Positions 2,195 to 41,941 of a stretch of 64,000 nucleotides of DNA are shown here, in pieces. Position 1 is the stretch's first letter, and each line of letters opens with the position of its first letter. The stretch is from Okibacterium sp. HSC-33S16. GTDB taxonomy: Bacteria > Actinomycetota > Actinomycetes > Actinomycetales > Microbacteriaceae. Where the stretch lies: the NCBI RefSeq assembly GCF_024171565.1, contig NZ_JALJZZ010000006.1, forward strand, positions 1 through 64,000. Reading direction: 5' to 3'. Both the position numbers and the translations under genes were made by a program. The notes beneath the pieces were generated by a model that did no database searches, was not told where the DNA came from, and saw nothing but the letters and a program-made list of their open reading frames with translations.

Positions 2195-3191
2195 GGGCCG
2201 GACACCGCTCGACGGCGTCGACGTTCTGCTCGCCGACCTCGACGGGGTCGTCTATGCCGGGCCGAATGCGATTCCGCACGCCATCGAGAGCCTCAACCAG
2301 GCCGCCGAGAGCATTCGGGTCGGATACATCACCAACAATGCGTCGCGCACCGATGCGTCGGTGGCCCAGCACCTCACGGAGCTCGGGCTGACCGTCGCGC
2401 CGAATGAGGTTGTCACCAGTCCGCAGGCAGCGGTTCGCCTGCTCGGCAATCACGTACCGGCAGGGTCGACCGTGTTGGTTGTCGGGGGAGACGGACTCGT
2501 TTCTGAACTCGAGAAGGGCGGCTTCGTCGTCACCCGCTCGGCCGATGACTCACCGGCTGCGGTGCTGCAGGGCTTCGCACCGCAGGTGAGCTGGTCCGAC
2601 CTCGCCGAGGCCGCATACGCGCTGCACCCGCGCGAAGACGGTGTCGAGATTCCGTGGATCGCGACGAACACCGACTGGACGATTCCGCAGGCTCGGGGAA
2701 TCGCGCCGGGAAACGGCACGCTCGTGTCGGCTGTGCACACCGCTGTCGGTCGACTTGCGACGGTCGCCGGCAAGCCCGAGACGCCCATTTTCGATGAGGC
2801 CAAGATCCGTTTCGGCTCCTCGCGTCCACTGTTCATCGGCGACCGGCTCGACACCGATATCCTCGGCGCGAACCGGGCCGGCATCGACTCGGTGCTCGTC
2901 CTGACCGGTGTCGACAAGGCCAAGCACGTGCTGGCCGCCGACAAGTTCTCCCGTCCAACGTTCATCGTCGAGGACCTGCGCTCACTACACGAGCCGTACC
3001 CGGTCACCCGGATGTCCCGCGACAATGCGGAGGCAACCGTCGGGGCCGCCGTGGTGCGGATCCAGGGAAACGACGTGGTCATCGTGAAGGAGGGCGAGCC
3101 GATCGACCTGCTCCGCGCGGCCTGCGCTGTGATCTGGGCATCGGGTCGTGCGATTTTCGGGTTCAACGTGCCGGAGCGCCTCTATTCCTGA
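2166..3191 (+). CDS. HAD-IIA family sugar-phosphate phosphatase
   Basis: This is a 341-residue haloacid dehalogenase-type hydrolase of subfamily IIA (NagD/phosphoglycolate phosphatase-like). Motif I is DLDGVVY, near residue 25, with both aspartates. The class II cap follows, and the C-terminal Mg-binding motif is GDRLDTDILGANRAG. YITNNASR matches the conserved motif II region. The ATG at 2166 lies inside the end of the preceding gene, 29 bases before its last base, which suggests translational coupling. The same frame is open further upstream, but that stretch is antisense-like read-through of the preceding gene. The substrate cannot be deduced; phosphoglycolate or small sugar phosphates are typical. 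Confidence 0.88.
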   Translation: MSPLLSRKSKGRTPLDGVDVLLADLDGVVYAGPNAIPHAIESLNQAAESIRVGYITNNASRTDASVAQHLTELGLTVAPNEVVTSPQAAVRLLGNHVPAGSTVLVVGGDGLVSELEKGGFVVTRSADDSPAAVLQGFAPQVSWSDLAEAAYALHPREDGVEIPWIATNTDWTIPQARGIAPGNGTLVSAVHTAVGRLATVAGKPETPIFDEAKIRFGSSRPLFIGDRLDTDILGANRAGIDSVLVLTGVDKAKHVLAADKFSRPTFIVEDLRSLHEPYPVTRMSRDNAEATVGAAVVRIQGNDVVIVKEGEPIDLLRAACAVIWASGRAIFGFNVPERLYS

Positions 3192-3213
3192 GGTCGCCGG
3201 TAATCTAGGGACC

Positions 3214-3378
3214 GTGAGTGACACTTCCCCTTTGAGCGACGACGCGCTCGTTCCTCGGCTTCACCTGATCGAAGATCAGCCGCTTGAGGCGCGCGCCGAG
3301 GCGTACGCACAACTGCACGAAGAGTTGCGCGCGCAGCTTGAGGGCGGCGACAAGCTGGCGTCGAGGAACTCCGCTTGA
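3214..3378 (+). CDS. Conserved small protein (54 aa)
   Basis: A GTG-started reading frame of 54 codons sits between the HAD phosphatase and tlyA, and its stop overlaps the tlyA start. The product is acidic and helical (pattern LEARAEAYAQLHEELRAQLE). Small proteins at this place beside tlyA are common in actinobacteria, but no function is known to me. The tight spacing and codon use like the neighbours support a real gene. Confidence 0.65.
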   Translation: MSDTSPLSDDALVPRLHLIEDQPLEARAEAYAQLHEELRAQLEGGDKLASRNSA

Positions 3379-6878: not shown

Positions 6879-8567
6879 GTGGTGAACATTACAGACGCGG
6901 ACCTTTCGAACGACACGACCAAGCACATCTTTGTGACCGGTGGTGTCGTTTCTTCGTTGGGCAAGGGACTCACGGCGGCAAGCCTGGGTAACCTGCTCAC
7001 AGCTCGGGGACTGCGTGTTGTCATGCAGAAACTCGACCCATACCTGAACGTCGACCCGGGAACGATGAACCCGTTCCAGCACGGCGAAGTCTTCGTCACC
7101 GACGACGGCACCGAGACCGACCTCGACATCGGACACTACGAGCGATTCCTCGACATCAACCTGAGCCAGGCGGCCAACGTCACCACCGGCCAGATCTACT
7201 CGACGGTCATCGCTCGGGAGCGTCGCGGCGAGTACCTCGGCGACACCGTCCAGGTCATCCCGCACATCACCGACGAGATCAAGCGCCGGATGCGCCTGCA
7301 GGCGTCGAACGACCCGAAGCCCGACGTGATCATCACCGAGGTCGGTGGAACCGTGGGTGACATCGAGTCGCAGCCGTTCATCGAAGCCGCTCGCCAGGTG
7401 CGTCACGAACTCGGTCGCAAGAACGTCTTCTTTGTGCACGTCTCACTCGTTCCCTACATGAACGCTTCGGGGGAGCAGAAGACCAAGCCGACGCAGCACT
7501 CCGTTGCCGCTCTCCGCTCGATCGGTATTCAGCCTGACGCGCTCGTGCTCCGCAGCGATCGCCCGGTCTCCGAGTCGAACAAGCGCAAGATCGCGCTCAT
7601 GTGCGACGTCGACGAGGCTGCTGTCGTGAACTGTGTCGACGTTCCCAGCATCTACGACATCCCGACTGTCCTGCACGACCAGGGCCTCGACGCCTACATC
7701 ATCGACCTCCTCGGCCTCGAAGCCGATGACGTCGACTGGTCGGCGTGGTCGCCGGTGCTCAAAGCCGTGCACGAACCCAAGCACGAAGTCACCATCGGCC
7801 TGGTCGGAAAGTACATCGACCTGCCCGACGCGTACCTCTCCGTCACCGAAGCGCTCCGCGCCGGTGGGTTCGCCCACGAGTCCAAGGTCAAACTGCAGTG
7901 GATTGCGTCAGACGAGTGCGAGACGCCGGAAGGTGCCGCCAAGGCGCTGGCCGATCTCGACGGCATCTGCGTGCCTGGTGGCTTCGGTATCCGCGGCATT
8001 GAAGGAAAGCTTGGGGCGCTGAAGTTCGCCCGCGACAACAAGATTCCTACGCTGGGCCTGTGCCTTGGCCTCCAGTGCATGGTGATCGAGTATGCACGCA
8101 ATGAAGCCGACCTCGCAGGCGCAAGCTCGAGCGAGTTCGACTCGGACACGGCGTTCCCGGTCATCGCGACCATGGCGGAGCAGGTGGAGATCATCGCCGG
8201 GGGAGACCTCGGTGGCACCATGCGACTCGGCCTCTACCCGGCACACCTTGACGAGGGATCGATCACCGCGGAGCTCTACGGTTCGACCGAGATCTCCGAG
8301 CGTCACCGTCACCGGTACGAGGTCAACAACCGCTACCGCCAGCAGATTGCGGATGCCGGACTGATCTTCTCGGGCACCAGCCCGGACGGCCAGCTGGTTG
8401 AGTTCGTCGAGCTGGACCGCGACGAGCACCCGTTCTATGTCGGCACCCAGGCGCACCCTGAGCTCCGTTCACGACCGACCCACGCGCACCCGCTGTTCCG
8501 CGGACTGATCGGTGCCGCCCTCGAGCGTCAGCAGGCCAGCCTGCTGTTCGAAGTTGCCGGTGCCTGA
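6879..8567 (+). CDS. pyrG: CTP synthase
   Basis: This 562-residue enzyme makes CTP from UTP, ATP and glutamine. The N-terminal synthetase domain carries [20 protein letters not shown] near residues 19-38. The C-terminal class I glutamine amidotransferase domain contains GLCLGLQCM with the nucleophile cysteine, and the histidine/glutamate pair in [10 protein letters not shown]. It begins with tandem GTG codons six bases after recN ends. Full length. Confidence 0.98.
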
Positions 8568-19392: not shown

Positions 19393-19419
19393 GGTCACAG
19401 CGTCACGTCTCATCTGGTC
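19393..19419 (+). promoter_or_regulatory. Putative ECF41-type promoter (site 1)
   Basis: GGTCACA, then exactly 16 bases, then GGTC, ending 55 bases before the GTG of the SnoaL-like gene at 19475. It is one of seven matching sites in this island. The spacing agrees with the ECF41 consensus as I recall it (TGTCACA-N16-CGTC). Confidence 0.7.
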
Positions 19420-19474
19420 TTAGCTTGCAGTTCCGCTGAAGCGGATTCGCGAACGGGCTGAAAGGAGACCGGGC

Positions 19475-19945
19475 GTGGTACATCACCAACCGGGGATCAT
19501 CATGTCACTCAGCACTGCACAATACTCATCGGTTCAGCACTCCTCGCCGACACCGTGGGCCATGGCCTGGGAATGGCTAGCGCGACCGACCCACTACCGG
19601 GCGGTCCGAAATTTGCGGCTGGCGCTCGAGGACGGAGACGCCGCTCGCCTCGCTTCGCTGCTTGAACCCGCTGTCGCCGTCGTCGTCGACGATGGTCATG
19701 CCGAACAACACTCCATCAAGGTGGTCGACGGTGAATATGACGCGGTCGCGCTCCTCCTTCTCGGCATGGGAGGCCAACCGGGACGATGCCTTCTCGAGCG
19801 TTCCGTCAACGGTCAAGCCGGCCTCTTTCTTCGTCAGGACGATGAAACAACGGCAACAATCACGATTGACTTCACCGGACGCCTGGTCAGCGTGGTGTGG
19901 ATACGGTTGCGCCCCTTGATGCTGCGTCACTGGAACACCGTCTGA
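19475..19945 (+). CDS. Stand-alone SnoaL/NTF2-like domain protein
   Basis: This 156-residue protein resembles the C-terminal regulatory domain of ECF41 sigma factors but has no sigma regions. The segment ERSVNGQAGLFLRQDD and the ending LMLRHWN pair with EVSVNGAPGLALRLCD and KLLPWN of the protein encoded at 21379-21750. A strong AAAGGAG ribosome-binding site eight bases ahead selects the GTG at 19475 over the ATG at 19502. An ECF41-type promoter lies upstream and a bidirectional terminator downstream. Role is inferred: a trans-acting sigma regulator or a small ligand-binding protein. Confidence 0.75.
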   Translation: MVHHQPGIIMSLSTAQYSSVQHSSPTPWAMAWEWLARPTHYRAVRNLRLALEDGDAARLASLLEPAVAVVVDDGHAEQHSIKVVDGEYDAVALLLLGMGGQPGRCLLERSVNGQAGLFLRQDDETTATITIDFTGRLVSVVWIRLRPLMLRHWNTV

Positions 19946-19971
19946 GTGGCGCCCGCCAGTCACACTCGCAA

Positions 19972-20008
19972 ACACCCCGGCATGTGGCTGTCTGCCTGAT
20001 GCCGGGGT
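19972..20008. terminator. Bidirectional terminator hairpin
   Basis: A perfect 11-bp stem (CACCCCGGCAT with ATGCCGGGGTG) lies between the convergent genes ending at 19945 and 20038. The T-tract is poor on both sides, so efficiency is uncertain. Confidence 0.7.
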
Positions 20009-20037
20009 GCTCAGTATGAGAGCCGGGCGACGAAGTT

Positions 20038-20481
20038 CTATCTCGCCGGATCGACGAGATCGGCATACTGCGGGTACCTCGTGATGAAAGCGGCAACAAC
20101 CCCGCAGTACACGCGTATGTGTCTTCCTTGTGAGCGGATGTCGTCGAGCGCATCGGCGATCAGGTCGGCGGCGAGACCGCGCCCCCGAAATGCCGGGTCA
20201 ACGGTTGTCGCCAGCACGTCGATCCGGTCGTCCTCGACGGCGAATCGAAGAGTCGCGATTTCCTGCGAGTCCATCATTGCCACGTAGACACTTTCATCGT
20301 CATACCGACGTAGTGTGATTTCCGAGTTCGTCTCCGCTGATGGTCGATCAACCTCTCGGGCAGCATCGGCTGTCACTTCTGCGATGAGCCTGGCCGTTCC
20401 TTCATCGAGAAAACCAGCACCGTCAGGGTACCCGGCGGTATCGGGATATTCGAAGGTGTGAAAACCGTCGTGATGAGTCAT
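20038..20481 (-). CDS. GNAT family N-acetyltransferase
   Basis: This 147-residue protein is a small acetyltransferase. VDPAFRGRGLAADLIADALD near residues 92-111 is the acetyl-CoA pyrophosphate loop, and the C-terminal VYCGVVAAFITRYPQY is typical of short GNATs. An AAGGAGG ribosome-binding site precedes the ATG. It lies 49 bases downstream of the SDR gene on the same strand and could be transcribed with it from the ECF41-type site at 21342. Substrate unknown. Confidence 0.85.
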   Translation of the reverse strand: MTHHDGFHTFEYPDTAGYPDGAGFLDEGTARLIAEVTADAAREVDRPSAETNSEITLRRYDDESVYVAMMDSQEIATLRFAVEDDRIDVLATTVDPAFRGRGLAADLIADALDDIRSQGRHIRVYCGVVAAFITRYPQYADLVDPAR

Positions 20482-20530
20482 TGCAGTCCTCCTTGGATGG
20501 TCTATGGATTAGTGCGGGTCACGTGGGTTG

Positions 20531-21292
20531 CTAGCGACCCACAGGCACCGGGTTCGCCGGCAGCCAGCTCTGGAAGCGAGTCGCAGCAAGGCGGGCCTCG
20601 GCTGCGGGCAACAAAGTGTGGGGGTCGAGAAGTGCACCAAAGTACCGAGCGGCGGGATCAGCGACAACGCGTCGGCCGTCTTCACGAAACTCCAATCCGG
20701 TTCGCACCAGATCGTCGAGATACCACTCGTCAGGCCCGGCCACCTCGATCACAGCGTTCGTCGGCTCGTCGACAGCAGTTTCCGCGACCGCTGCCGCTAC
20801 GTCAGTGGCGGCCATCGGCCGAATCCCCGCGTGGGCCAGATGGACCTCCCCATCGACTGTCGCCGAATCCGCGATACTTGTCACGAACTCAAAGAACTGG
20901 GTCGCGTGGACGATGCTGTACGGGAGTCCACCCTGAACGATGAGTCGCTCCTGAGCAATCTTCGCGCGGAAATAGGGGCTCTCGGAGAGCCGGTCGGTTC
21001 CGACAACCGACAGTGCAACATAGTGACGGATGCCTGCGGTGCGTGAGGCGGACAAGAGATTCGTTGTTGACGTGGTGAAAAAGTCCATCACCGCCCGTTC
21101 TTCAAAGGAGGGGGAGTTGGAAACGTCAACAACGACGTCTGCGCCGGCCAGCACTTCGGATAGGCCGGCGCCGGTGAGGGTGTCTACACCCGAAGCGGGC
21201 GAAGCCGCGATCGCGAGGTGACCGTGATCTCCCAAGGTGGACACGAGTTTCGATCCGATGAGGCCAGTGCCTCCGATGACGACGATTTTCAT
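20531..21292 (-). CDS. NmrA/SDR-like NAD(P)-binding oxidoreductase 1
   Basis: This 253-residue atypical short-chain dehydrogenase begins MKIVVIGGTGLIGSKL, an N-terminal Rossmann fold. RAKIAQERLIVQGGLPYSI and HATQFFEF match the NmrA-like/epimerase group. The ATG at 21292 follows AAAGGAAC; an open frame 50 codons further upstream lacks a site and would cover the promoter. It is paralogous to the gene at 24947. Oxidoreductases and epimerases are the classic genomic partners of ECF41 sigma factors (established knowledge). Substrate unknown. Confidence 0.9.
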   Translation of the reverse strand: MKIVVIGGTGLIGSKLVSTLGDHGHLAIAASPASGVDTLTGAGLSEVLAGADVVVDVSNSPSFEERAVMDFFTTSTTNLLSASRTAGIRHYVALSVVGTDRLSESPYFRAKIAQERLIVQGGLPYSIVHATQFFEFVTSIADSATVDGEVHLAHAGIRPMAATDVAAAVAETAVDEPTNAVIEVAGPDEWYLDDLVRTGLEFREDGRRVVADPAARYFGALLDPHTLLPAAEARLAATRFQSWLPANPVPVGR

Positions 21293-21341
21293 GGTGTTCC
21301 TTTCTGGCTGTGGGGATGGTTCTCCTCCCCGTGCCAGCTTT

Positions 21342-21368
21342 GACCGAACGGCACCTGCGTCTGTGACG
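21342..21368 (-). promoter_or_regulatory. Putative ECF41-type promoter (site 2)
   Basis: On the minus strand: CGTCACA, 16 bases, GGTC, ending 49 bases before the ATG of oxidoreductase 1. It sits in the 86-base gap behind the SnoaL-like gene, so the oxidoreductase can be transcribed apart from the sigma operon. Confidence 0.72.
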
Positions 21369-21378
21369 CGTTCACCCT

Positions 21379-21750
21379 TCAGAGCTCCGGAAATCGCTGT
21401 CGGTTCCACGGGAGAAGCTTCCGGGGTGCGGCAGAGAGCCACAGGCGGTCAATCTGCCCGGTGAGGCTGTAACCAGCGGTGAGAACCCCGACATCCCATC
21501 CGTCGCACAGTCGAAGCGCCAGTCCAGGAGCTCCGTTGACAGAAACCTCCACAAAGAATGCACCGTCGTATGCGTGACGAAAGCTCTGCAACCGGGCGGC
21601 GCACAAAGAGCGACCGTGAATCACACCGCCGGTTTCGTCGCCGGTGTCGAGGACCATTCGCACTGAGTTCTTGAACACAGCGGCGAGAGCGAGGTCATCG
21701 CCGGTGTTCAGTGCGTTGAGCAAACGGGCGATGACATCATCACGCGACAC
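21379..21750 (-). CDS. Stand-alone SnoaL-like domain protein coupled to sigma gene
   Basis: This 123-residue protein resembles the C-terminal domain of ECF41 sigma factors: an initial helix VIARLLNALNTGDD, then a beta-sheet with EVSVNGAPGLALRLCD and the ending APRKLLPWN. Its ATG at 21750 lies 11 bases inside the end of the sigma gene 21740-22618, which implies translational coupling and near-equal expression. A detached copy of a sigma factor's own regulatory domain next to that sigma gene suggests regulation in trans; this is inference. It could also be a ligand-binding enzyme-like fold. Confidence 0.8.
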   Translation of the reverse strand: MSRDDVIARLLNALNTGDDLALAAVFKNSVRMVLDTGDETGGVIHGRSLCAARLQSFRHAYDGAFFVEVSVNGAPGLALRLCDGWDVGVLTAGYSLTGQIDRLWLSAAPRKLLPWNRQRFPEL

Positions 21751-22618
21751 GGGAAGTCACGGCACCGAGCTTGTGCGGATTCATCATCCACAGCAGCTGG
21801 TCGATGCCATCGATGGACGCGACGACTGAGACAACAGCGAAAACGCTCTCGTCCCGAGAGAGTACGACCGCGGGTTGGCCGTTCAGTGTGGTTTCCTCGA
21901 TTCGAACGCCGGTCCAGAACTGCCTCTGGAAGGCACGAACGAACTTCGCCACCGTCACCCTCCCGCGCACGGGGAACTTGGAAGCGCGGACGATTCCGCC
22001 ACCGTCAGAGTACGAGACAATATCTGCCGCGAAGAGGCGCTCGAGGTCTTCGAGCTGGCCGGTCTGTGCGGCGGAAAGGAATGCGGAAAGGAGCCGGCGC
22101 TGCTCCGTCGTTGAGACCTGCCGTCGGCGCTCTCCCTCGAGATGCTTGCGTGCTCGACTGACGAGTTGTCGAGTTGCCACTTCTGAGACCTGAACGATCT
22201 CGCAAATCTGTGTGTACGAGTAGGCGAAGGCTTCCCGGAGAACGTAAGCGGCGCGTTCAGTTGGTGTGAGCCGTTCCAGCATGACCAGGACGGCGAAGTT
22301 CAGCGCTTCAGCGCGTTCCGCCCCCAGCGCGGGGTCGTTGCGGGTGTCGACGGGTTCGGGTAGCCACGGGCCGACGTATGTCTCGCGCCTCGCTCGTGCG
22401 GACTGGAGTGCGTTGATGGCGAGACGAGTCGTTGTCGTGGCGAGAAAGGCAGCGGGATTCTCGACAACAGATCGGTTTGTACCCTGCCATCGAAGCCACG
22501 CCTCTTGCACAATGTCTTCCGCCTCGTGAGCGCTTCCGAGCATTCGATAGGCGATGCCGAAGAGGCGAGGGCGTACCGTCGCGAAGACCGAGAGCGCGTC
22601 TTGGAGGTCGGTAGTCAT
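21740..22618 (-). CDS. ECF41-type RNA polymerase sigma factor 1
   Basis: This 292-residue ECF sigma factor has region 2 (about 12-80, GIAYRMLGSAHEAEDIVQE) and region 4 (about 110-165). A SnoaL-like C-terminal domain follows. All three ECF41 signatures are present: WLPEP at 85-89 between the sigma regions, DGGG at 205-208, and NPHKL at 280-284. In characterised ECF41 proteins the C-terminal domain both activates and restrains the sigma factor, with no separate anti-sigma gene. An ECF41-type promoter 55 bases upstream suggests positive autoregulation. It heads a two-gene unit with the SnoaL-like gene. Confidence 0.93.
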   Translation of the reverse strand: MTTDLQDALSVFATVRPRLFGIAYRMLGSAHEAEDIVQEAWLRWQGTNRSVVENPAAFLATTTTRLAINALQSARARRETYVGPWLPEPVDTRNDPALGAERAEALNFAVLVMLERLTPTERAAYVLREAFAYSYTQICEIVQVSEVATRQLVSRARKHLEGERRRQVSTTEQRRLLSAFLSAAQTGQLEDLERLFAADIVSYSDGGGIVRASKFPVRGRVTVAKFVRAFQRQFWTGVRIEETTLNGQPAVVLSRDESVFAVVSVVASIDGIDQLLWMMNPHKLGAVTSRVA

Positions 22619-22673
22619 GGCGATAGTCCTGTCGATTCATCGAGGGTCTGCAGAACGTCCCTCTACCTATTCA

Positions 22674-22700
22674 GACCAGACAGCCCTCAAACCTGTGACA
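22674..22700 (-). promoter_or_regulatory. Putative ECF41-type promoter (site 3), autoregulatory
   Basis: On the minus strand: TGTCACA, 16 bases, GGTC, ending 55 bases before the ATG of sigma factor 1. A match ahead of the sigma gene itself implies autoregulation by one of the two ECF41 factors. Confidence 0.75.
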
Positions 22701-22777
22701 GCATTCGGACAATTTCTTTTGGACGCACTGACGGGGTGCGACAGCGAACGTCGCCGCACCCCGTTTACCTCGCGGAA

Positions 22778-23515
22778 TCACACCGTAATTGTTGCCTCGG
22801 CAACCGTGCGCACGGCGGTAGCGATGGTTGACGCGACGTCAGCCGGCCGCGACACACTGGTCGCGTGTGACGCGCCGGTGAGTTCGGTCGTTCCTCGGGA
22901 ACCGGCGCGCTCAGCACCCGCACGGAACACTGCGGCGGGGATATTGCGGTCCTCGGATCCGAATACATGCCACGAGGGGTGATTGGTCCAGCCCGGTTGA
23001 TCCGACTGGACGGTATCGCGCAGTGCTGCCTCGGTGATGGGGCGTTGGGTGGCGCCCATGAGACCGGCAACTTGTACTGGAGCATCCGCGGCGAATTGAC
23101 TGTGGAAAAGCGACCGACGAATAACAAACTCCACTCCGCCCGTCGACAGCGGGATCGGATCCAGGGCCTCGCCGAGTGTGCTGCCCGGTGCGCTTGCTGA
23201 CAGCGAGAACGCGCTGTCACCCTGCTCAGGCACGAACGCGGAAACGTAAACGAGGGCCGCGACCTTGTCATTGTTGGCTGACGCTTCGCTGATCACGAGA
23301 CCGCCATACGAATGCCCGACGAGAACGACCGGGCCGTCGATAGAAGCAATGACGTCACGGACGTATGCCGCATCACCACTCAAGCTGCGGAGCGGGTTTG
23401 CGACCGCGACTGAGGTGATTCTCATTGCGTACAGTCGTTCGATGACACCATTCCAACTTGCTGATTCAGCGAAAGCGCCGTGCACGAACACGACCGTTGG
23501 GCTTTGATCTGACAT
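22778..23515 (-). CDS. Alpha/beta hydrolase
   Basis: This 245-residue alpha/beta-fold hydrolase has VVFVHGAFAESASW at the N-terminus and the nucleophile elbow GHSYGG near residue 88. GASHATSVSRP carries the likely catalytic histidine. It belongs to the esterase/haloperoxidase-like group, often found under stress-sigma control. It is transcribed away from sigma gene 2 and has its own ECF41-type site. Substrate unknown. Confidence 0.9.
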   Translation of the reverse strand: MSDQSPTVVFVHGAFAESASWNGVIERLYAMRITSVAVANPLRSLSGDAAYVRDVIASIDGPVVLVGHSYGGLVISEASANNDKVAALVYVSAFVPEQGDSAFSLSASAPGSTLGEALDPIPLSTGGVEFVIRRSLFHSQFAADAPVQVAGLMGATQRPITEAALRDTVQSDQPGWTNHPSWHVFGSEDRNIPAAVFRAGAERAGSRGTTELTGASHATSVSRPADVASTIATAVRTVAEATITV

Positions 23516-23565
23516 GAGTGTTTCCTTTCTCCGTGAACCACCCCTGTCGATGATTCACCAACTCA

Positions 23566-23592
23566 GACAGCACCAAGGCCGGTGCTGTGACA
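23566..23592 (-). promoter_or_regulatory. Putative ECF41-type promoter (site 4)
   Basis: On the minus strand: TGTCACA, 16 bases, TGTC, ending 50 bases before the ATG of the alpha/beta hydrolase. The spacer contains an inverted repeat (CAGCACC and GGTGCTG), which could be an additional operator. Confidence 0.65.
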
Positions 23593-23730
23593 GGAAATCG
23601 GAATCACGGTGTTGCGCCCAGACTTTTTCTTGACATTTACTCACCTTCAGTGACAGCTTGGACGGGTGCCGACCTGCGGGCGTTCTCGGCAATCGCAGGC
23701 GTGAACGGTCGCCAACCCGAAAGACAACCA

Positions 23731-24708
23731 ATGCGTTCCCATGAAACAACGCAGCTGGCTTCGTCGCCGCGCGAGTCTCGACGCCCCGGTCGCATCAGTT
23801 ATCCATCAGCATCGGTCCTTCCGAAGACAGCGTCCCCCGATCTCGATGAGGCATTAGCGGCGTTTTCCGCGGTGCAACGTCGTCTGTTTGGAATCGCGTA
23901 TCGGATGCTCGGGAGCGCGTCAGACGCGGAAGATGTCGTCCAGGAGGTCTGGGTTCGCTGGCAAGGCTGTGACCGTTCCGTCGTGCGGGAGCCGGCAGCG
24001 TTCCTGGCGACAACGACAACGCACCTCGCTCTCAACATGATGACGTCTGCGCGGGCACGGCATGAGGCATACATTGGGCCCTGGCTCCCTGAGCCGATTG
24101 ACACTGGTGTTAATCCGGAACTGGCCGCAGAGAGCGAGGAGACGCTCGAGCTTGGAGTGCTTTTCCTGCTCGAACGCCTCTCGCCGGCGGAGCGAGCGGC
24201 GTATGTGCTTCGCGAGGCCTTCGACTATCCCTATGCGCAGATCGCCGCCATTGTCGGGGTGGAACAAGCCAACGCTCGTCAGTTGGTCAGCCGCGCGCGG
24301 AAACACCTCGCGACTGAGAAACATCCACCGGTCGGTGCGTCCCAACAACGGCGTTTCCTGGAAGCGTTCCTCGGCGCCGCTCAATCCGGAGACGTCGAGG
24401 GGCTGGAGACCATCTTCTCCGACGACATCGTGAGCTACTCCGATGGCGGCGGCACGAGGCAGGCGGCCCGGATTCCACTGGTCGGACGTACGCGTGTGGT
24501 CAAATTCGTGGCCGCTCTATCCGAGTGGTTCTGGGACGGTGTTGACATTCAGTGGATCGAGGCCAATGGTCGCGCGGCGCTGCGCCTTGTGGCCAACGAC
24601 GAAACCTTTGCGCTCATCACCGTCAGCGTTTCTGCTGAAGGTATCCACCAGCTGTTTTGGATGGTGAATCCGGCCAAGCTCGACAAGATACTGCCTGCCC
24701 TCGCGTGA
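23731..24708 (+). CDS. ECF41-type RNA polymerase sigma factor 2
   Basis: This 325-residue ECF sigma factor is paralogous to sigma factor 1. After a 40-residue N-terminal extension come region 2 (GIAYRMLGSASDAEDVVQE) and region 4. The ECF41 signatures are WLPEP at 118-122, DGGG at 238-241 and NPAKL at 313-317. The ATG at 23731 is preceded by a GAAAG sequence. The frame is open from 23587, but that would place the start within site 4. No ECF41-type site was found ahead of it in its own direction, so this sigma gene may be the unregulated member of the pair. Confidence 0.92.
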   Translation: MRSHETTQLASSPRESRRPGRISYPSASVLPKTASPDLDEALAAFSAVQRRLFGIAYRMLGSASDAEDVVQEVWVRWQGCDRSVVREPAAFLATTTTHLALNMMTSARARHEAYIGPWLPEPIDTGVNPELAAESEETLELGVLFLLERLSPAERAAYVLREAFDYPYAQIAAIVGVEQANARQLVSRARKHLATEKHPPVGASQQRRFLEAFLGAAQSGDVEGLETIFSDDIVSYSDGGGTRQAARIPLVGRTRVVKFVAALSEWFWDGVDIQWIEANGRAALRLVANDETFALITVSVSAEGIHQLFWMVNPAKLDKILPALA

Positions 24709-24864
24709 CTACTCGTTGGCCAGTTCCTCTCAGTCGTTGAAAGGCCTTCGCCGTTCGCCGTCAACGGTGATGACGCGTGGTAGCTGGAATCTCCGCTTTT
24801 AGTCTCCAGCTGGGAGCTGATGCCGCGGGTATCCGACTTTGGTCGACGCGGATTGTCCGCTAGC

Positions 24865-24891
24865 CGTCACAGACCGCATGTAGTCCCGGTC
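24865..24891 (+). promoter_or_regulatory. Putative ECF41-type promoter (site 5)
   Basis: CGTCACA, 16 bases, GGTC, ending 55 bases before the ATG of oxidoreductase 2. The first three spacer bases (GAC) match those of site 2 ahead of the paralogous oxidoreductase 1. Confidence 0.75.
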
Positions 24892-24946
24892 GTTGCTGAT
24901 GAGTCGCGCGGTGTTTGCTGCGTGCTGGCATATGAAAGGACTACAC

Positions 24947-25714
24947 ATGAAGATCGTCATCGTCGGAGGAACCGGGCTGATCGGGCGTCGCGTCGGACAA
25001 ATCCTGCAGGAGTCAGGCCATGAGGTGGTTGCCGCGTCACGTTCCACGGGCGTCAACGTGGTGACTGGCGAAGGCCTTGATGATGTGCTCCAGGGAGCTC
25101 ACGTTGTGGTTGACGTCCCGAATGCGCCGTCATTTGAAGACGGCCCGGTCATGGAATTCTTCCGAGCGTCGACACAAAACTTGGTCGCAGCTGAAGAGAA
25201 GGCCGGAGTCGGGCACCACGTGGTGTTGTCTATCGTCGGGACCGACCGACTCCCTGGTATCGGATACATGCGGGCGAAAGCACGGCAGGAGGAAATCGTG
25301 CGGGCGAGCGGGATCCCATACACGATCGTGCGCGCCACGCAGTTCTTCGAGTTCATCTCGGCGCTCGCCGACGGCGCTACAGAGGGAGATGTCGTCCGGC
25401 TCGCTCCGGTTCTCATGCAGCCGATCGCGGCCGCCGATGTCTCGAAAGCGGTGGCTCACATCGCCGTCGGAGACGCTCTCAACGACGTCATCGAACTGGC
25501 CGGCCCCGACGCTCTTCGTCTGGCGGATGTTGCGGCTGACCTCCTCCAGGCGACCTCTGACTCCCGGAAGGTAGTTCCGGAGATTTCTGTCGGCTACTTT
25601 GGCGGCACCGTCACAGATGAGTCGCTGACGCCGGGACATGACGACCGCGTGACCCGGCAGCTTCGTGGTGCCACATCGTTCTCGGCGTGGCTGAACTCGA
25701 TCGTCCGGCACTGA
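24947..25714 (+). CDS. NmrA/SDR-like NAD(P)-binding oxidoreductase 2
   Basis: This 255-residue Rossmann-fold oxidoreductase begins MKIVIVGGTGLIGRRV and is paralogous to the gene at 20531. Shared blocks include DVVVDV/HVVVDV near residue 65 and HATQFFEF/RATQFFEF near residue 140. The ATG follows GAAAGGA. It has its own ECF41-type promoter and ends ten bases before a strong hairpin. Likely a stress-induced dehydrogenase or epimerase of unknown substrate. Confidence 0.9.
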   Translation: MKIVIVGGTGLIGRRVGQILQESGHEVVAASRSTGVNVVTGEGLDDVLQGAHVVVDVPNAPSFEDGPVMEFFRASTQNLVAAEEKAGVGHHVVLSIVGTDRLPGIGYMRAKARQEEIVRASGIPYTIVRATQFFEFISALADGATEGDVVRLAPVLMQPIAAADVSKAVAHIAVGDALNDVIELAGPDALRLADVAADLLQATSDSRKVVPEISVGYFGGTVTDESLTPGHDDRVTRQLRGATSFSAWLNSIVRH

Positions 25715-25724
25715 TCTGAAGATT

Positions 25725-25760
25725 CGGGGCGCTCTCGGGATGTCACACGAGAGCGCCCCG
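25725..25760 (+). terminator. Terminator-like hairpin overlapping a promoter
   Basis: A perfect 13-bp GC-rich stem (CGGGGCGCTCTCG with CGAGAGCGCCCCG) encloses a 10-base loop. The loop contains the whole -35-like TGTCACA of site 6, and the 3' arm forms most of its spacer. It probably ends oxidoreductase 2 transcripts. Confidence 0.75.
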
Positions 25761-25767
25761 TCCGGTC
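25741..25767 (+). promoter_or_regulatory. Putative ECF41-type promoter (site 6)
   Basis: TGTCACA, 16 bases, GGTC, ending 34 bases before the NADH dehydrogenase ATG. It lies within the hairpin at 25725-25760, so one sequence serves as terminator and promoter. Confidence 0.75.
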
Positions 25768-25801
25768 TAAGTGATGAACCCGTCTACATAAGGAGCATCG
25801 C

Positions 25802-27124
25802 ATGCACAAGATCGTTATCGTCGGTGGCGGCTATGCCGGTTTTTACACGGCATGGAAGCTCGAGAAGCGGCTGAAGCCGCACGAAGCTGAACTGCTGATC
25901 ATCGATCCGCGGCCATATATGACGTATCAACCGTTTCTTCCTGAGGTCGCCGCCGGTTCGATCGAGCCCAGGCATGCGGCGATCTCGCTTCGCTCTCACT
26001 TGCGGCGGACACGCATTCTCGCTGGTGGTGCCACCATGATCAATCATTCGGCACGGTCGGTGACCGTTGAACCCGCCGATGGGCCGGAGCTGGAGGTGGA
26101 GTACGACACGATAGTCGTGACGGCAGGAGCGGTTACCAGGAAGCTTCCGATTCCCGGTGCCGAAGAAGTCGCCATCGGAATGAAGCACGTTGAGGAAGCC
26201 GTTGCGATCCGCGATCGAGTCCTCACCGCCTTTGACCGCGCGTCCGTCCTTGATTCCGGTGCTGAGCGGCAACGGCTGCTCACCTTCGCATTTGTCGGCG
26301 GGGGCTTCTCCGGTGTTGAAGGCTTTGGGGAACTGCTTTCCCTCGCAACCGGGCTCCTCAAGTCCTATCCGGAAATTCGCTTCTCCGAGTTGTCCTTCCA
26401 TCTTGTCGAAGCGAGTCCTCGAATACTTCCCGAAGTTACAGAAAAACCGGGTTTGTGGGTGGTGGAGTCGCTTCGATCTCGAGGCGCGCACGTGCATCTC
26501 AGTACACGAGTTATTTCCGCCGTAGACGGTCATGTCGAGCTCTCGACTGGTGAGGCGTTCGACGCCAACCTCATCGTGTGGACGGCGGGAAATGCCGCTC
26601 ACCCCATCATCGCTAAACACACTGACCTGCCAACGGACGAACGCGGCCGGCTTGTGGTGCGGGCCGATCTCCGAATCGGAACGTTCGATGAGCCCGTCGC
26701 GAATGCCTGGGCGGCAGGAGACAACGCAGCCGTTCCCGATCTTGCCTTGGAACAGTCCGGGTCGTTCACCGTGCCGAACGCCCAGCACGCCGTGCGCCAG
26801 GGCAAGAGACTGGCAGCCAATATCGTCGCGTCACTGCGAGGTGAGCGTCCGCGTCCCTATCGACACGATTCGCTCGGGGTTGTTGCCACGCTCGGACTTG
26901 GCCGGGGAATCTTCCAGTACAAGAGAATTGTGATCACGGGCCTGCCGGCATGGCTGATGCACCGGGGCTACCACGTGCTCGCCATTCCGACCTGGGAACG
27001 AAAGATCCGGGTGCTCGCGGTCTGGTTGACGGCCTTTGTGAGCGGACGCGACATCGTGTCGTTGCTCTCCGTGCAAGAGCCGCGGAAAGCCTTCGTTTCA
27101 GGAGGTATCCCTCATGCCCGCTGA
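25802..27124 (+). CDS. ndh: Type II NADH dehydrogenase (NDH-2)
   Basis: This 440-residue FAD enzyme passes electrons from NADH to quinone without pumping protons. The FAD-binding motif IVIVGGGYAGFYTAWKLEK is at the N-terminus. The NADH-binding motif FVGGGFSGVEGFGEL is near residue 165. ANAWAAGDNAAVPD and the quinone-site region NAQHAVRQGKRLAANI also fit. The C-terminal segment (about 375-420, with WLMHRGYHVLAIP) is the membrane-associating part. It follows AAGGAG and overlaps the cytochrome b gene by 11 bases, so the two are translationally coupled. Confidence 0.9.
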   Translation: MHKIVIVGGGYAGFYTAWKLEKRLKPHEAELLIIDPRPYMTYQPFLPEVAAGSIEPRHAAISLRSHLRRTRILAGGATMINHSARSVTVEPADGPELEVEYDTIVVTAGAVTRKLPIPGAEEVAIGMKHVEEAVAIRDRVLTAFDRASVLDSGAERQRLLTFAFVGGGFSGVEGFGELLSLATGLLKSYPEIRFSELSFHLVEASPRILPEVTEKPGLWVVESLRSRGAHVHLSTRVISAVDGHVELSTGEAFDANLIVWTAGNAAHPIIAKHTDLPTDERGRLVVRADLRIGTFDEPVANAWAAGDNAAVPDLALEQSGSFTVPNAQHAVRQGKRLAANIVASLRGERPRPYRHDSLGVVATLGLGRGIFQYKRIVITGLPAWLMHRGYHVLAIPTWERKIRVLAVWLTAFVSGRDIVSLLSVQEPRKAFVSGGIPHAR

Positions 27125-28751
27125 CCGCCGTCCTCGGCGTCCTTCCCTGAGTGACCGACTCAGCCTCAAGCTGCTGAACACCAGGGTATTCGGGCACCGC
27201 ATCGCTGAACTGAACGCTGACGTTCGGCGCAGAACCGTTCCGAACCACTGGACGACTCTGGTCGGAGTCGTGACCATGGCCTGTGTCCTTGTCGTCACCG
27301 TGACGGGGCTCATTCTGATGTTTTTCTATACTCCGTCGAGCGATTCCACGCGGTACAGCGGCACCTACGCGGCGCTGCACGGTGCCGAGGTCTCCAAGGC
27401 ATTCGCATCCATGATGCGCATCACCTTCGAGGTTCCCGGCGGGCTTCTGTTGCGACAGCTCCACCACTGGTCCGCACTGATGCTCCCTGCCGCGGTCTTG
27501 CTGCAACTGATCGTTGCCTTTTTCACCGGCGCCTTTCGTCGGCCGCGACGAGGCATGTGGTTGTTGCTCTTCGGTATCTATGTCGTCAGCCTGGCGGGCG
27601 GTTGGAGCGGCTATGCCTTGCCGGACGACATGCTCTCGGGCACCGGGCTGCGAATCACCGAAGGCATTATTCTCTCGATTCCGCTTATCGGCACATGGCT
27701 GACGTACCTGTTCTTTGGTGGCTCCTTTCCGGGTGCTGTCATCGAAAATCTTTACCCGCTGCACGTCGTCGTCGTTCCGGCGACGCTTTTCGTCTTCCTC
27801 ATCCTTCGTGGGCTGGCCGGTTGGCGGCATAAACCAGCGCAGTTTCCAGGACGGGACCGCACCGACGAAACTATCGTGGGTTCTCCGCTGGTACCCGTCG
27901 TGGCAACCCGCGCAGCCGGGCTGTTCTTTCTCACCGCGGGAGTTCTCGTTCTCGTGTCAGCAACCGTGACGGTGAATCCGATCTGGCTCTATGGCCCAGC
28001 CTCTCCTGGAGATGCTTCCGCCGGAAGTCAGCCCGACTGGTACACCGGCTTCCTTGACGGTGCACTCCGTCTCGTGCCTCCGGGCTGGGAATTGCAGCTG
28101 TTTGATCGCACCTGGACTCTGGCGTTGCTTGTCCCGCTTGCTGTGGTGACGGTCTACCTCCTCGCCATGGCCGCCTATCCGTTTGTCGAAGAATGGATCA
28201 CCGGTGACCGGCGCGATCATCACCTGCTCGATCGCCCCCGCAATACCTCAATCCGAACGAGCATCGGCATCGCCGCAATGGTCTTCTACGCGGTGTTGTG
28301 GGTCGCGGCGAGCGCCGACCTCATCGCAACTCATTTCTCCATCGCACTCGAGCAGATCATCGGCGTCCTTCAGGTATCGCTTGTCCTGGGTCCGATGATC
28401 GGGTTCAGCCTCACCCGACGAATCTGTCTCGCTTTACAGAGGAAAGACAGTGAGGTGCTTGTGCACGGCTTCGAAACAGGGCGCGTCGTCCGACTCCCCG
28501 GTGGGGAATATGTGGAGGTCCACCGGAAGGTCGGCGACTCCGAGCACGCAAGACTTGCTCGGGCAGACGACTATCGGCCTCTCGAGCTTCGACCCAACGA
28601 ACGTGGACAGCTGCCACTGAGTCACAGGCTGAGGGCCGCGCTGTCTCAACTCTTCTTCGAAGACCGCATTCAGCCCGCAGTATTGGCGCACGAGGCACCC
28701 GGGAAATCTCAGGACGGTCCCGTCACAACGGATGAACGCGTCTTGTCCTAG
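27114..28751 (+). CDS. Orphan cytochrome b (QcrB-like) lacking one pair of heme ligands
   Basis: This 545-residue integral membrane protein is homologous to actinobacterial cytochrome bc1 subunit QcrB. It has about eight or nine membrane helices and the family blocks FFTGAFRRPR, GYALPDDMLSGTGLR, SFPGAVIENLYPLH and SAGSQPDWYTG. The first heme-ligand pair is kept (H117 in helix B, H217 in helix D). The second pair expected 14 and 15 residues later is Q131 and R232, so the bH-type heme is probably absent. No Rieske or cytochrome cc subunit gene adjoins it. Coupling to NDH-2 suggests a small membrane redox module. Physiological role is unknown. Confidence 0.85.
   Translation: MPADRRPRRPSLSDRLSLKLLNTRVFGHRIAELNADVRRRTVPNHWTTLVGVVTMACVLVVTVTGLILMFFYTPSSDSTRYSGTYAALHGAEVSKAFASMMRITFEVPGGLLLRQLHHWSALMLPAAVLLQLIVAFFTGAFRRPRRGMWLLLFGIYVVSLAGGWSGYALPDDMLSGTGLRITEGIILSIPLIGTWLTYLFFGGSFPGAVIENLYPLHVVVVPATLFVFLILRGLAGWRHKPAQFPGRDRTDETIVGSPLVPVVATRAAGLFFLTAGVLVLVSATVTVNPIWLYGPASPGDASAGSQPDWYTGFLDGALRLVPPGWELQLFDRTWTLALLVPLAVVTVYLLAMAAYPFVEEWITGDRRDHHLLDRPRNTSIRTSIGIAAMVFYAVLWVAASADLIATHFSIALEQIIGVLQVSLVLGPMIGFSLTRRICLALQRKDSEVLVHGFETGRVVRLPGGEYVEVHRKVGDSEHARLARADDYRPLELRPNERGQLPLSHRLRAALSQLFFEDRIQPAVLAHEAPGKSQDGPVTTDERVLS
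28721..28747 (+). promoter_or_regulatory. Putative ECF41-type promoter (site 7)
   Basis: CGTCACA, 16 bases, TGTC, lying in the last codons of the cytochrome b gene and ending 70 bases before the ATG of the downstream esterase. Confidence 0.62.
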
Positions 28752-28817
28752 CTGGTGGAAGCGCCCAACATCGGTCGCCTTCAACGCACACAAGCTCACT
28801 AGTGAAAGGGAAAGACT

Positions 28818-29777
28818 ATGAACTCCAACATTCTCGAGCCAGAGGCACAGGCTCTTGCTGACGCAACATCACAACCTCCATTTCTTTACGAACTCGGAGT
28901 TGACGGCGCTCGGAAGGTGCTCGACGATCTCCAGAAAGCGCCGGTAGCTCTTCTCGACGTCAACGAGGAATGGATCACGGTTCCCGCTGCCGTGGGCGAT
29001 GTCCGTGTCCGAATCGTCAAACCCCACGCAGCGGCGGAGATTCTTCCGACCATCCTCTACGTGCACGGCGGAGGGTGGGTTCTGGGCAACGCCGGTACCC
29101 ACGACCGCCTCGTTCGCGAGCTCGCCGTTGGAGCTGAAGCCGCTGTGGTGTTTGTTGAGTACGATCGTTCACCTGAATCCCGGTATCCGGTCGCGATTGA
29201 GCAGGCATATGCCACAGCCCAGTGGATCACTCGTGAGGGCGAATCCAAGGGCCTCGACGCAACCCGCCTCGCAGTTGCCGGTGACTCCGTCGGTGGCAAT
29301 ATGACGGCGGCACTCGCAATCCTTGCTCAGCAAAGGGGCGATGTTACGTTCATCCATCAGTCGATGTACTACCCGGTTACCGATGCTGGACAAGACACAG
29401 CCAGCTATCGGCAGTTCGCTGACGGGCCGTATCTGACTGCCAAAGCAATGGCCTGGTTCTGGGACAACTATCTGCCGGACGTGACGAGGCGCTCGGACAT
29501 CACGGCTTCACCGCTCCGTGCCACGGTCGACCAACTTTCCGGGCTACCGGAGGCTTTGCTTCTTGTCGATGAAAACGACGTCCTTCGAGACGAAGGCGAG
29601 GCATATGCGCGCAAGCTCACCGAGGCTGGAGTGCGAACAACCAGTGTTCGCTATAACGGCACCGTTCACGACTTCATGATGCTCAACCCGCTGCGGCCCA
29701 GCGCCGCGACCACCGCTGCGGTGGAGCTTGCGATCCACGCGCTGCGCAAGGCGTTCGGTCGGGTACTCGTCAGCTAA
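28818..29777 (+). CDS. Alpha/beta hydrolase, hormone-sensitive-lipase family
   Basis: This 319-residue esterase/lipase has the oxyanion motif HGGG at 83-86 and the nucleophile elbow GDSVGG at 155-160, with Ser157. GTVHDFMMLNPL carries the catalytic histidine near the C-terminus. The ATG follows AAAGGGAAAG. It is the last gene of the ECF41-linked island and converges, with an eight-base overlap, on the alpha-glucosidase. Likely hydrolyses short acyl esters. Confidence 0.9.
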   Translation: MNSNILEPEAQALADATSQPPFLYELGVDGARKVLDDLQKAPVALLDVNEEWITVPAAVGDVRVRIVKPHAAAEILPTILYVHGGGWVLGNAGTHDRLVRELAVGAEAAVVFVEYDRSPESRYPVAIEQAYATAQWITREGESKGLDATRLAVAGDSVGGNMTAALAILAQQRGDVTFIHQSMYYPVTDAGQDTASYRQFADGPYLTAKAMAWFWDNYLPDVTRRSDITASPLRATVDQLSGLPEALLLVDENDVLRDEGEAYARKLTEAGVRTTSVRYNGTVHDFMMLNPLRPSAATTAAVELAIHALRKAFGRVLVS

Positions 29778-41861: not shown

Positions 41862-41935
<74 letters not shown>

Positions 41936-41941
41936 CCGAAT

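Follow-up and report, generated by a model that had tools for sequence, protein, structure and literature searches.

The 64,000-nucleotide stretch of Okibacterium sp. HSC-33S16 analysed here (contig NZ_JALJZZ010000006.1, positions 1 to 64,000; hereafter the window) carries a cluster in which two genes for extracytoplasmic function (ECF) sigma factors of the ECF41 group, ECF41a and ECF41b, lie among genes for oxidoreductases, hydrolases, a dehydrogenase of the NDH-2 type, a cytochrome b and two stand-alone homologues of the ECF41 C-terminal domain (CTD1 and CTD2). Seven ECF41-type promoter sites precede genes of this cluster. Comparisons with related loci indicate that it very probably constitutes a multi-operon ECF41 regulon bound to its own locus. 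The predicted features are as follows.

19393..19419, plus strand: site 1, ECF41-type promoter (pattern and matrix, 25.9 bits)
19475..19945, plus strand: CTD1, stand-alone ECF41 C-terminal (SnoaL/NTF2-like) domain homologue, 156 amino acids from GTG
20038..20481, minus strand: GNAT-family acetyltransferase
20531..21292, minus strand: NmrA1, NmrA/NAD(P)H-binding SDR-type oxidoreductase (Pfam match)
21342..21368, minus strand: site 2, ECF41-type promoter (pattern and matrix, 32.2 bits)
21379..21750, minus strand: CTD2, stand-alone ECF41 C-terminal domain (SigJ/SigX4 models, trees, structure)
21740..22618, minus strand: ECF41a sigma factor with YVGPWLPEP, DGGG and NPHKL (SigX4/SigJ models, motifs, tree)
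22674..22700, minus strand: site 3, ECF41-type promoter, before ECF41a (pattern and matrix, 23.0 bits)
22778..23515, minus strand: ABH6, alpha/beta hydrolase (Pfam match)
23566..23592, minus strand: site 4, ECF41-type promoter (pattern and matrix, 26.0 bits)
23731..24708, plus strand: ECF41b sigma factor with YIGPWLPEP, DGGG and NPAKL (putative start; open frame from 23587; SigX4/SigJ models, motifs, tree)
24865..24891, plus strand: site 5, ECF41-type promoter (pattern and matrix, 22.2 bits)
24947..25714, plus strand: NmrA2, NmrA/NAD(P)H-binding SDR-type oxidoreductase (Pfam match)
25741..25767, plus strand: site 6, ECF41-type promoter (pattern and matrix, 24.7 bits)
25802..27124, plus strand: NDH-2-like NADH dehydrogenase (Pyr_redox_2; solved-chain matches)
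27114..28751, plus strand: QcrB paralogue (NF050120, alignment to solved QcrB)
28721..28747, plus strand: site 7, ECF41-type promoter, overlapping the last codons of the cytochrome b gene (matrix, 22.7 bits)
28818..29777, plus strand: HSL-type esterase, nearest LipP1 (below that model's cut-off)

The initial annotation had placed seven sites here, all within 9.4 kb around the two ECF41 genes and each 34-70 nucleotides before a start codon on the correct strand. A search of both strands for GTCACA-N16-KGTC (the consensus of the seven being BGTCACA-N16-KGTC) recovers every one at its position and strand, and the spacing between -10 box and start codon, remeasured for sites 1 to 7, is 55, 49, 55, 50, 55, 34 and 70 nucleotides. 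The genes that follow are, in the same order, those for CTD1, NmrA1, ECF41a, ABH6, NmrA2, the NDH-2/cytochrome b pair and the HSL-type esterase. At site 5 the ATG at 24947 is preferred as the NmrA2 start over the first TTG of the frame; for CTD1 an alternative start, the ATG at 19502, is possible.

The pattern has eight exact matches in the window, where 0.36 are expected in 64 kb and none of 100 shuffles reaches eight, and seven of the eight are clustered within 9.4 kb. A scoring matrix built from 60 sites of relatives (16 loci, window excluded) places the seven sites at ranks 1 to 7 with 22.2-32.2 bits, the next window score being 7.1 and the best score in 20 shuffled windows 14.7. The eighth match (6912-6937, minus strand) was rejected as a target. 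It scores 7.1 bits and lies inside a 659-codon open frame that also contains its sole downstream start candidates, and this low score and location mark it as probably a chance occurrence. The resemblance to the ECF41 consensus noted earlier holds for the -35 core and the 16-base spacer, which are as published, but not for the -10 box, which is GGTC at five sites and TGTC at two instead of CGTC.

Across the whole genome (3.23 Mb, ten contigs) there are 20 exact matches, against 7 for a backwards control, and seven of the 20 are in the cluster. The remaining 13, that at 6912 included, were not counted as targets: all sit in open frames of 435-1977 bases, 11 score 10.7 bits or less, and a start candidate lies within 110 nucleotides downstream in six, which for 6912 falls within the same open frame. 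The best two (18.2 and 15.9 bits) are located in frames of 1641 and 1356 bases and lack a suitable downstream start.

Promoter sites around related sigma factors

Both sigma factors match Sigma70_r2 and Sigma70_r4_2 and give a weak SnoaL_2 match under the cut-off, while the SigX4 and SigJ models are matched above their cut-offs by ECF41a and just below them by ECF41b. The linker (YVGPWLPEP or YIGPWLPEP) and the NPHKL or NPAKL motif are kept in both. DGGGK is a further ECF41 motif, of which both proteins have DGGG with the K replaced. When 199 genomes of the same family were searched with ECF41a, 65 yielded a match at E<=1e-30. We fetched 20 loci around close ECF41 relatives, 20 around distant ECF41 genes and additional stretches around CTD matches; 23 of the loci were grouped as 'HI' and 24 as 'LO', with one close ECF41 match near a contig end (genome G270) outside the set.

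With the reversed pattern as control, the 23 HI loci contain 52 sites against 2 and the 24 LO loci 25 against 0. Enrichment in the HI loci is confined to the 16-base spacer, which occurs in 53 sites versus 2 at each of 14, 15, 17, 18 and 19 bases. The first base of the -10 box is G in 36, T in 15, C in 1 and A in 1 of the HI sites, and C in 12, T in 10, G in 3 and A in 1 of the LO sites (Fisher p 2e-6 for G versus the rest, with rows that are not independent). Downstream of the -10 box nnAGCT is favoured in HI loci, and it often follows the window sites as well.

The two window sigma factors belong to a single 18-row clade in a quick tree of 57 ECF41 proteins (SH-aLRT 95), and this clade holds at least one sigma factor from every HI locus with two or more sites. 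The 13 clade loci, window included, have 49 strict sites, 1 to 8 each, and 11 of these loci have at least two. Within 200 nucleotides, 41 of the 49 sites lead on the same strand to a homologue of one of the window genes (NmrA1 17, ECF41a 6, HSL 5, ABH6 5, NmrA2 2, NDH-2 2, CTD1 2, GNAT 1, ECF41b 1), and 26 of the 41 distances are 45-60 nucleotides. Relatives also have predicted targets of other types, namely a gene for a hexameric tyrosine-coordinated heme protein (HTHP) in L090 and Pyr_redox_2 and SDR genes in L094. In a further 30 ECF41 loci (L095-L124) the highest count is two sites, reached by four of them; because two-site loci thus occur outside the clade too, two sites alone are not diagnostic. 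Locus L074, 12 kb from the cluster of genome G083, has three sites.

Named genomes were scanned by contig, yielding at least 79 ECF41 loci, the best matches being the ones listed; the counts given for them refer to the matches listed. By its nearest named relatives the window would most likely belong to the Microbacteriaceae. These 79 listed loci contain 144 sites, against 3 for the reversed pattern. Leifsonia sp. Leaf264 (L157) combines seven sites with two stand-alone CTDs, NDH-2, the QcrB paralogue, HSL, ABH6, GNAT and one ECF41. Site counts are 2, 5 and 4 in three Agromyces loci, 9 in Actinacidiphila glaucinigra (L169), 8 in Actinoallomurus purpureus (L171) and 7 in Streptomyces lanatus (L188), and many other listed loci have one or none.

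Whole genomes were scanned with a sequence model of 56 relatives' sites at E<=1, with 150 of 2053-3294 first-look candidates per genome scored. The scan of the window's own genome (150 of 2055 candidates scored), a check suggested in the initial annotation and run here with the relatives' model, gave six matches, five of them in the cluster; two of the seven cluster sites are missed. Matches inside ECF41 clusters number 8 of 9 in G029, 6 of 8 in G083, 7 of 7 in G015 and 6 of 7 in G109, genomes whose cluster sites mostly trained the model, and both matches in G002 lie outside an ECF41 cluster. Since the matches are concentrated in ECF41 clusters, the regulon appears bound to its locus, with a few possible outlying targets such as G029 C2:844876 (E 0.01).

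Three side observations concern these loci. A third, distant ECF41-type sigma factor (34-36% identity) is encoded 110 kb from the cluster (G000 C6:133951-134802, L082), and its 16-kb surroundings contain one strict site. The HTHP gene of L090 (3673-4001) directly follows a strict site. A strict site also precedes L072 9280-9924 (G029), which encodes a 215-residue protein without a Pfam family and with stretches that look membrane-like by eye.

Stand-alone regulatory domains

CTD1 and CTD2 match no Pfam family at 0.001, and they match the SigJ and SigX4 models at positions 163-290 (CTD1) and 174-287 (CTD2) only. The beginning of the CTD2 gene and the end of ECF41a share 11 bases. Using a model of the fused domain, with C-terminal domains cut by alignment, we found 19 open reading frames in the fetched loci that match this domain and have no sigma match; 18 of them match the SigJ model and 17 the SigX4 model. 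A profile of the 19 rows finds SigJ (5xe7, residues 175-296) as the best PDB chain at E 1e-10, followed by a chain at 4.5e-5. By these comparisons, CTD1 and CTD2 are homologues of the ECF41 C-terminal domain and are nearer in sequence to SigJ than to other NTF2-like proteins. A search of titles and abstract openings in an open-licence library gave no match for stand-alone ECF41 domains.

ECF41a is immediately followed by a stand-alone CTD gene in 11 clade loci of 13, and the 30 other ECF41 loci have none (Fisher p 1e-8, on rows related by descent). In the other two clade loci, L089 and L090, the place of CTD2 is taken by another complete ECF41 whose sigma core has diverged, with N-domain scores of 172 and 179 versus a median of 214. 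In a tree of 76 domains the 19 stand-alone proteins and the fused domains of these two second sigma factors form one group (96/96) that contains no other fused domain, and the CTD1 type forms its own eight-member group (100/99); the tree has few columns, long branches and a midpoint root, and the direction of change is inferred.

All 11 members in the CTD2 place end in KLxxW, seven of them in PxKLxxW, and nine have WN; PxKL is a form of the motif by which the domain of fused ECF41 touches the sigma linker (PMC7730460). We considered KLxxWN as a mark of stand-alone domains and rejected it, since KLxxW also ends 7 of the 57 fused ECF41 proteins (the L089 and L090 second sigma factors and five more); NPxKL is present in 49 of the 57. 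In the full-length tree the two second sigma factors group with L082, L080, L081, L090_13413, L113_18429 and L115 (97; an eight-row set), and all five other proteins with the KLxxW ending fall in this set. The shared ending and the grouping in the trees indicate that the stand-alone domains may descend from this subclade and not from a copied ECF41a.

A site precedes the CTD1 gene in the window, L072, L073, L076 and L079, and a GTCACG variant does so in L078. In L080, which is outside the 30 comparison loci, 1.4 kb and an intervening gene separate ECF41 from a CTD1-type gene downstream. Among the 79 listed named loci, 12 have a stand-alone domain ending in KLxxW after their ECF41 (three Agromyces, Leifsonia, three Microbacterium, Kribbella, two Streptosporangiaceae, Asanoa and Saccharothrix); a match in L188 was dropped as a broken end without the family tail.

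There is a likeness to the SigG1-RsfG pair of Streptomyces tsukubaensis (ECF56), in which a SnoaL_2-fused ECF sigma factor is accompanied by a small protein without a Pfam family, encoded immediately after it, that was shown to bind it (PMC7730460). SigG1 belongs to ECF56 and the window sigma factors to ECF41, and RsfG is compared by description only. No stand-alone CTD occurs within 1.5 kb at 20 loci (12 above cut-off) in six Streptomycetaceae genomes that match TIGR02960, which we tentatively take to be the ECF56 model, a result that says nothing on RsfG itself.

The predicted regulon and its possible feedback

The window sigma factors have in common with the ECF41 group (Ecf41Bli, Ecf41Rsp and SigJ of Mycobacterium tuberculosis) the domain layout, YVGPWLPEP, NPxKL, the TGTCACA -35 box, the 16-base spacer and NmrA/oxidoreductase targets. 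They differ in having seven predicted promoters instead of one target, GGTC/TGTC instead of CGTC, stand-alone CTD genes, and predicted NDH-2 and QcrB-paralogue targets. The earlier statement that ECF41 usually has a single target agrees with the members studied in Bacillus licheniformis, Rhodobacter and Sinorhizobium (PMC3426412; PMC6180224), but is not universal: RpoE10 of Azospirillum is listed as ECF41, and a cited title has RpoE10 controlling motility (PMC8999054). A single target is a described tendency of the group and not a criterion of membership. The initial annotation's multi-operon regulon with NDH-2 and cytochrome b is strengthened by promoter/gene pairs that recur in the 13 clade loci and in Leaf264, although that account had overlooked the CTDs, the loss of haem ligands and the shift at the -10 box.

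Removal of the distal part of the C-terminal extension raised the activity of Ecf41Bli and Ecf41Rsp about 20- and 120-fold, whereas removal of the whole extension abolished it (PMC3426412). In fused ECF41 an NPDKL motif connects the domain to the YVGPWLPEP linker (PMC7730460), and ECF41 is described as having no known inducing condition (PMC3426412). We infer that the window sigma factors read the seven sites: RNA polymerase would be brought to the seven promoters by ECF41a, which has a site before its own gene, and probably also by ECF41b. This would switch on the NmrA-type oxidoreductases, the two hydrolases, the NDH-2/cytochrome b membrane pair, ECF41a itself and CTD1, with CTD2 probably on the same transcript as ECF41a. 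CTD2 and CTD1 would be freed copies of the regulatory domain that give feedback in trans, acting either on the sigma factor or on the small molecule that is its signal. A free KL-bearing domain made beside the sigma factor could work by competing for the linker, by forming a mixed dimer or by holding the ligand. The feedback loop would be closed by CTD1, which has its own site, and NDH-2 would feed the quinone pool.

Taken as a whole, this combination of regulon and CTD feedback is the likely explanation of the locus. That the CTDs act as regulators has, taken by itself, about an even chance, and a role in redox or electrophile stress, which the HTHP, Pyr_redox_2 and SDR targets of relatives would fit, falls slightly short of that.

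Several observations weigh against a regulon with CTD feedback. L086 and L087, two of the 13 clade loci, have one strict site only. ECF41b has no site upstream on its own strand among the 25 best matrix scores of the window, and it could have different targets. None of the eight CTD1-type members keeps KL (seven have WN), and matrix scans find no good site before CTD1 in L077 (G002) or L080. In Leaf264 no site directly precedes the CTD1-type gene, and G006 has such a gene but no ECF41a relative at E<=1e-30. AlphaFold models of CTD2 (pLDDT 94.5) and CTD1 (87.7) are confident NTF2/SnoaL folds for which VIA-align gives SigG1 (7qh5) as the top chain (CTD2 Z 12.4, 115 residues, 3.2 A; CTD1 Z 13.3, 137 residues, 4.4 A). 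However, SigG1 leads the other NTF2-like chains by no more than 1 Z, so this likeness is not specific and an enzyme is possible. Foldseek places SigG1 at rank 4 and SigJ at rank 7 for CTD1, and ketosteroid isomerases at the top of the list for CTD2.

The fold, the Foldseek list for CTD2 and the G006 gene are what would be cited for stand-alone CTDs that are SnoaL/ketosteroid-isomerase-like enzymes, destroying or converting the molecule sensed by the fused domain and thereby giving metabolic feedback. Such a role is conceivable, if not favoured, since the nearest solved chain by sequence is SigJ, CTD2 and sigma genes overlap in the seven loci, out of 23, whose CTD2 start could be resolved, and the C-terminal domains of the L089 and L090 second sigma factors share a clade with the stand-alone proteins.

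A division of the seven promoters between two parallel circuits, with ECF41a and ECF41b each driving a subset and no single regulon, is somewhat less likely again. Two sigma factors of the 18-row clade do stand side by side in five of the 13 loci (window, L072, L075, L088 and L094), and the window has both GGTC and TGTC boxes; but loci with one clade sigma factor are already multi-site (L091 with two, L092 with three), and one matrix is common to the sites.

ECF41 has mostly been described as comprising single-target regulators without a separate partner protein, from which this multi-promoter locus and its CTDs depart. A clade with up to eight sites per locus offers a strong comparative handle on the ECF41 signal, and the free regulatory domains make the fused-domain mechanism testable in trans.

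The NDH-2/cytochrome b pair

The first protein of the pair is a two-dinucleotide-binding flavoprotein of the NDH-2 type, with a Pyr_redox_2 match and with NADH:quinone reductases and NADH dehydrogenases as best solved chains. Its partner, the cytochrome b, scores above the NF050120 cut-off as a QcrB homologue and shares 48% identity with the other QcrB of this genome. It resembles actinobacterial QcrB (bcc-aa3; PDB 7q21) in homology over nearly its whole length, in the quinol-site PDWY motif and in the bL ligands. Alignment to solved QcrB shows H117 and H217 kept, with Q131 and R232 in place of the second histidine of each ligand pair; following established cytochrome b knowledge, we take the second histidines to be the haem bH ligands and the first to be those of bL. 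The paralogue thus differs from actinobacterial QcrB in the replacement of both bH ligands, in having no adjoining Rieske gene, in the NDH-2 gene before it and in its ECF41-type promoter. Of the features by which a QcrB of the bcc complex was recognized, it has neither the full set of four histidine ligands nor a neighbouring Rieske gene.

QcrB relatives were sought in the 199 family genomes, and the best 30 of 50 places were examined as loci. The window, L125-L129, L131 and L132 all show H-Q-H-R, L130 has H-H-H-Y and L105 a near form. In nine of these ten ligand-defective members the gene or its operon is preceded, on its own strand, by a site scoring 14.5 bits or more, which stands before NDH-2 in the window, L125 and L130 and before CTD1 in L128; L132 has only 9.7 bits on the right strand. 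A regular expression found no Rieske motif beside the ten genes in the examined stretches, nor within 1.5 kb on each side in L083, the locus used to assess the paralogue. A Rieske motif is present in all 21 four-histidine QcrB loci, where no site exceeds 9 bits. L153 and L081 (the latter with a 9.2-bit site) were left out of these counts as another ligand-defective form, with ALWY for PDWY.

A rule that the promoter occurs on bH-less QcrB only was dropped: it holds for the 21 four-histidine loci and, outside the family, L171 fits it, but L169 has a four-histidine homologue (44%) after a site. Ligand-changed QcrB paralogues also adjoin ECF41 genes outside the 18-row clade (L097 10424-13263, L105 7434-8927, L112 10544-12085 and L081 7138-8592), and the link between ECF41 and the cytochrome would therefore be wider than the clade. 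No match for QcrB without haem bH was found in titles and abstract openings in an open-licence library.

The loss of two canonical haem ligands and of a neighbouring Rieske gene might mark a decaying duplicate and not a functional protein. This is improbable, because open frames with an intact PDWY retain these H-to-Q and H-to-R substitutions in several genera, mostly with an ECF41-type site. Least probable of all is that another sigma factor reads the sites and clusters with ECF41 by coincidence, for although the -10 box departs from the published CGTC, the TGTCACA -35 box is stated to be ECF41-specific (PMC3426412) and the 79 listed named loci have 144 sites against 3 for the reversed pattern.

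A broader, tentative proposal is on balance somewhat doubtful. The sensory half of a sigma factor may have been set free, a second ECF41 beside ECF41a losing its sigma core to become the trans partner CTD2 and an inducible feedback copy, CTD1, with L089 and L090 representing the stage before the loss. The resulting circuit would govern a new membrane redox module in which NDH-2 and a single-haem (bL-only) QcrB handle quinol outside bc1. The bH-less QcrB would then be a natural experiment on a one-haem cytochrome b.

As for the remaining genes, the window matrix scan finds no site for the GNAT gene, whose homologues in L072 and L074 do carry one. The sole tRNA gene found in the window, tRNA-Pro(ggg) at 41862-41937, is located away from the cluster. 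In a genome of the same genus (G002), CTD1 (L077 9767-10207) lies directly between the flanking genes of the window block 19946-29769, without the ECF41 cluster, which indicates that this 10-kb block is present or absent within the genus.

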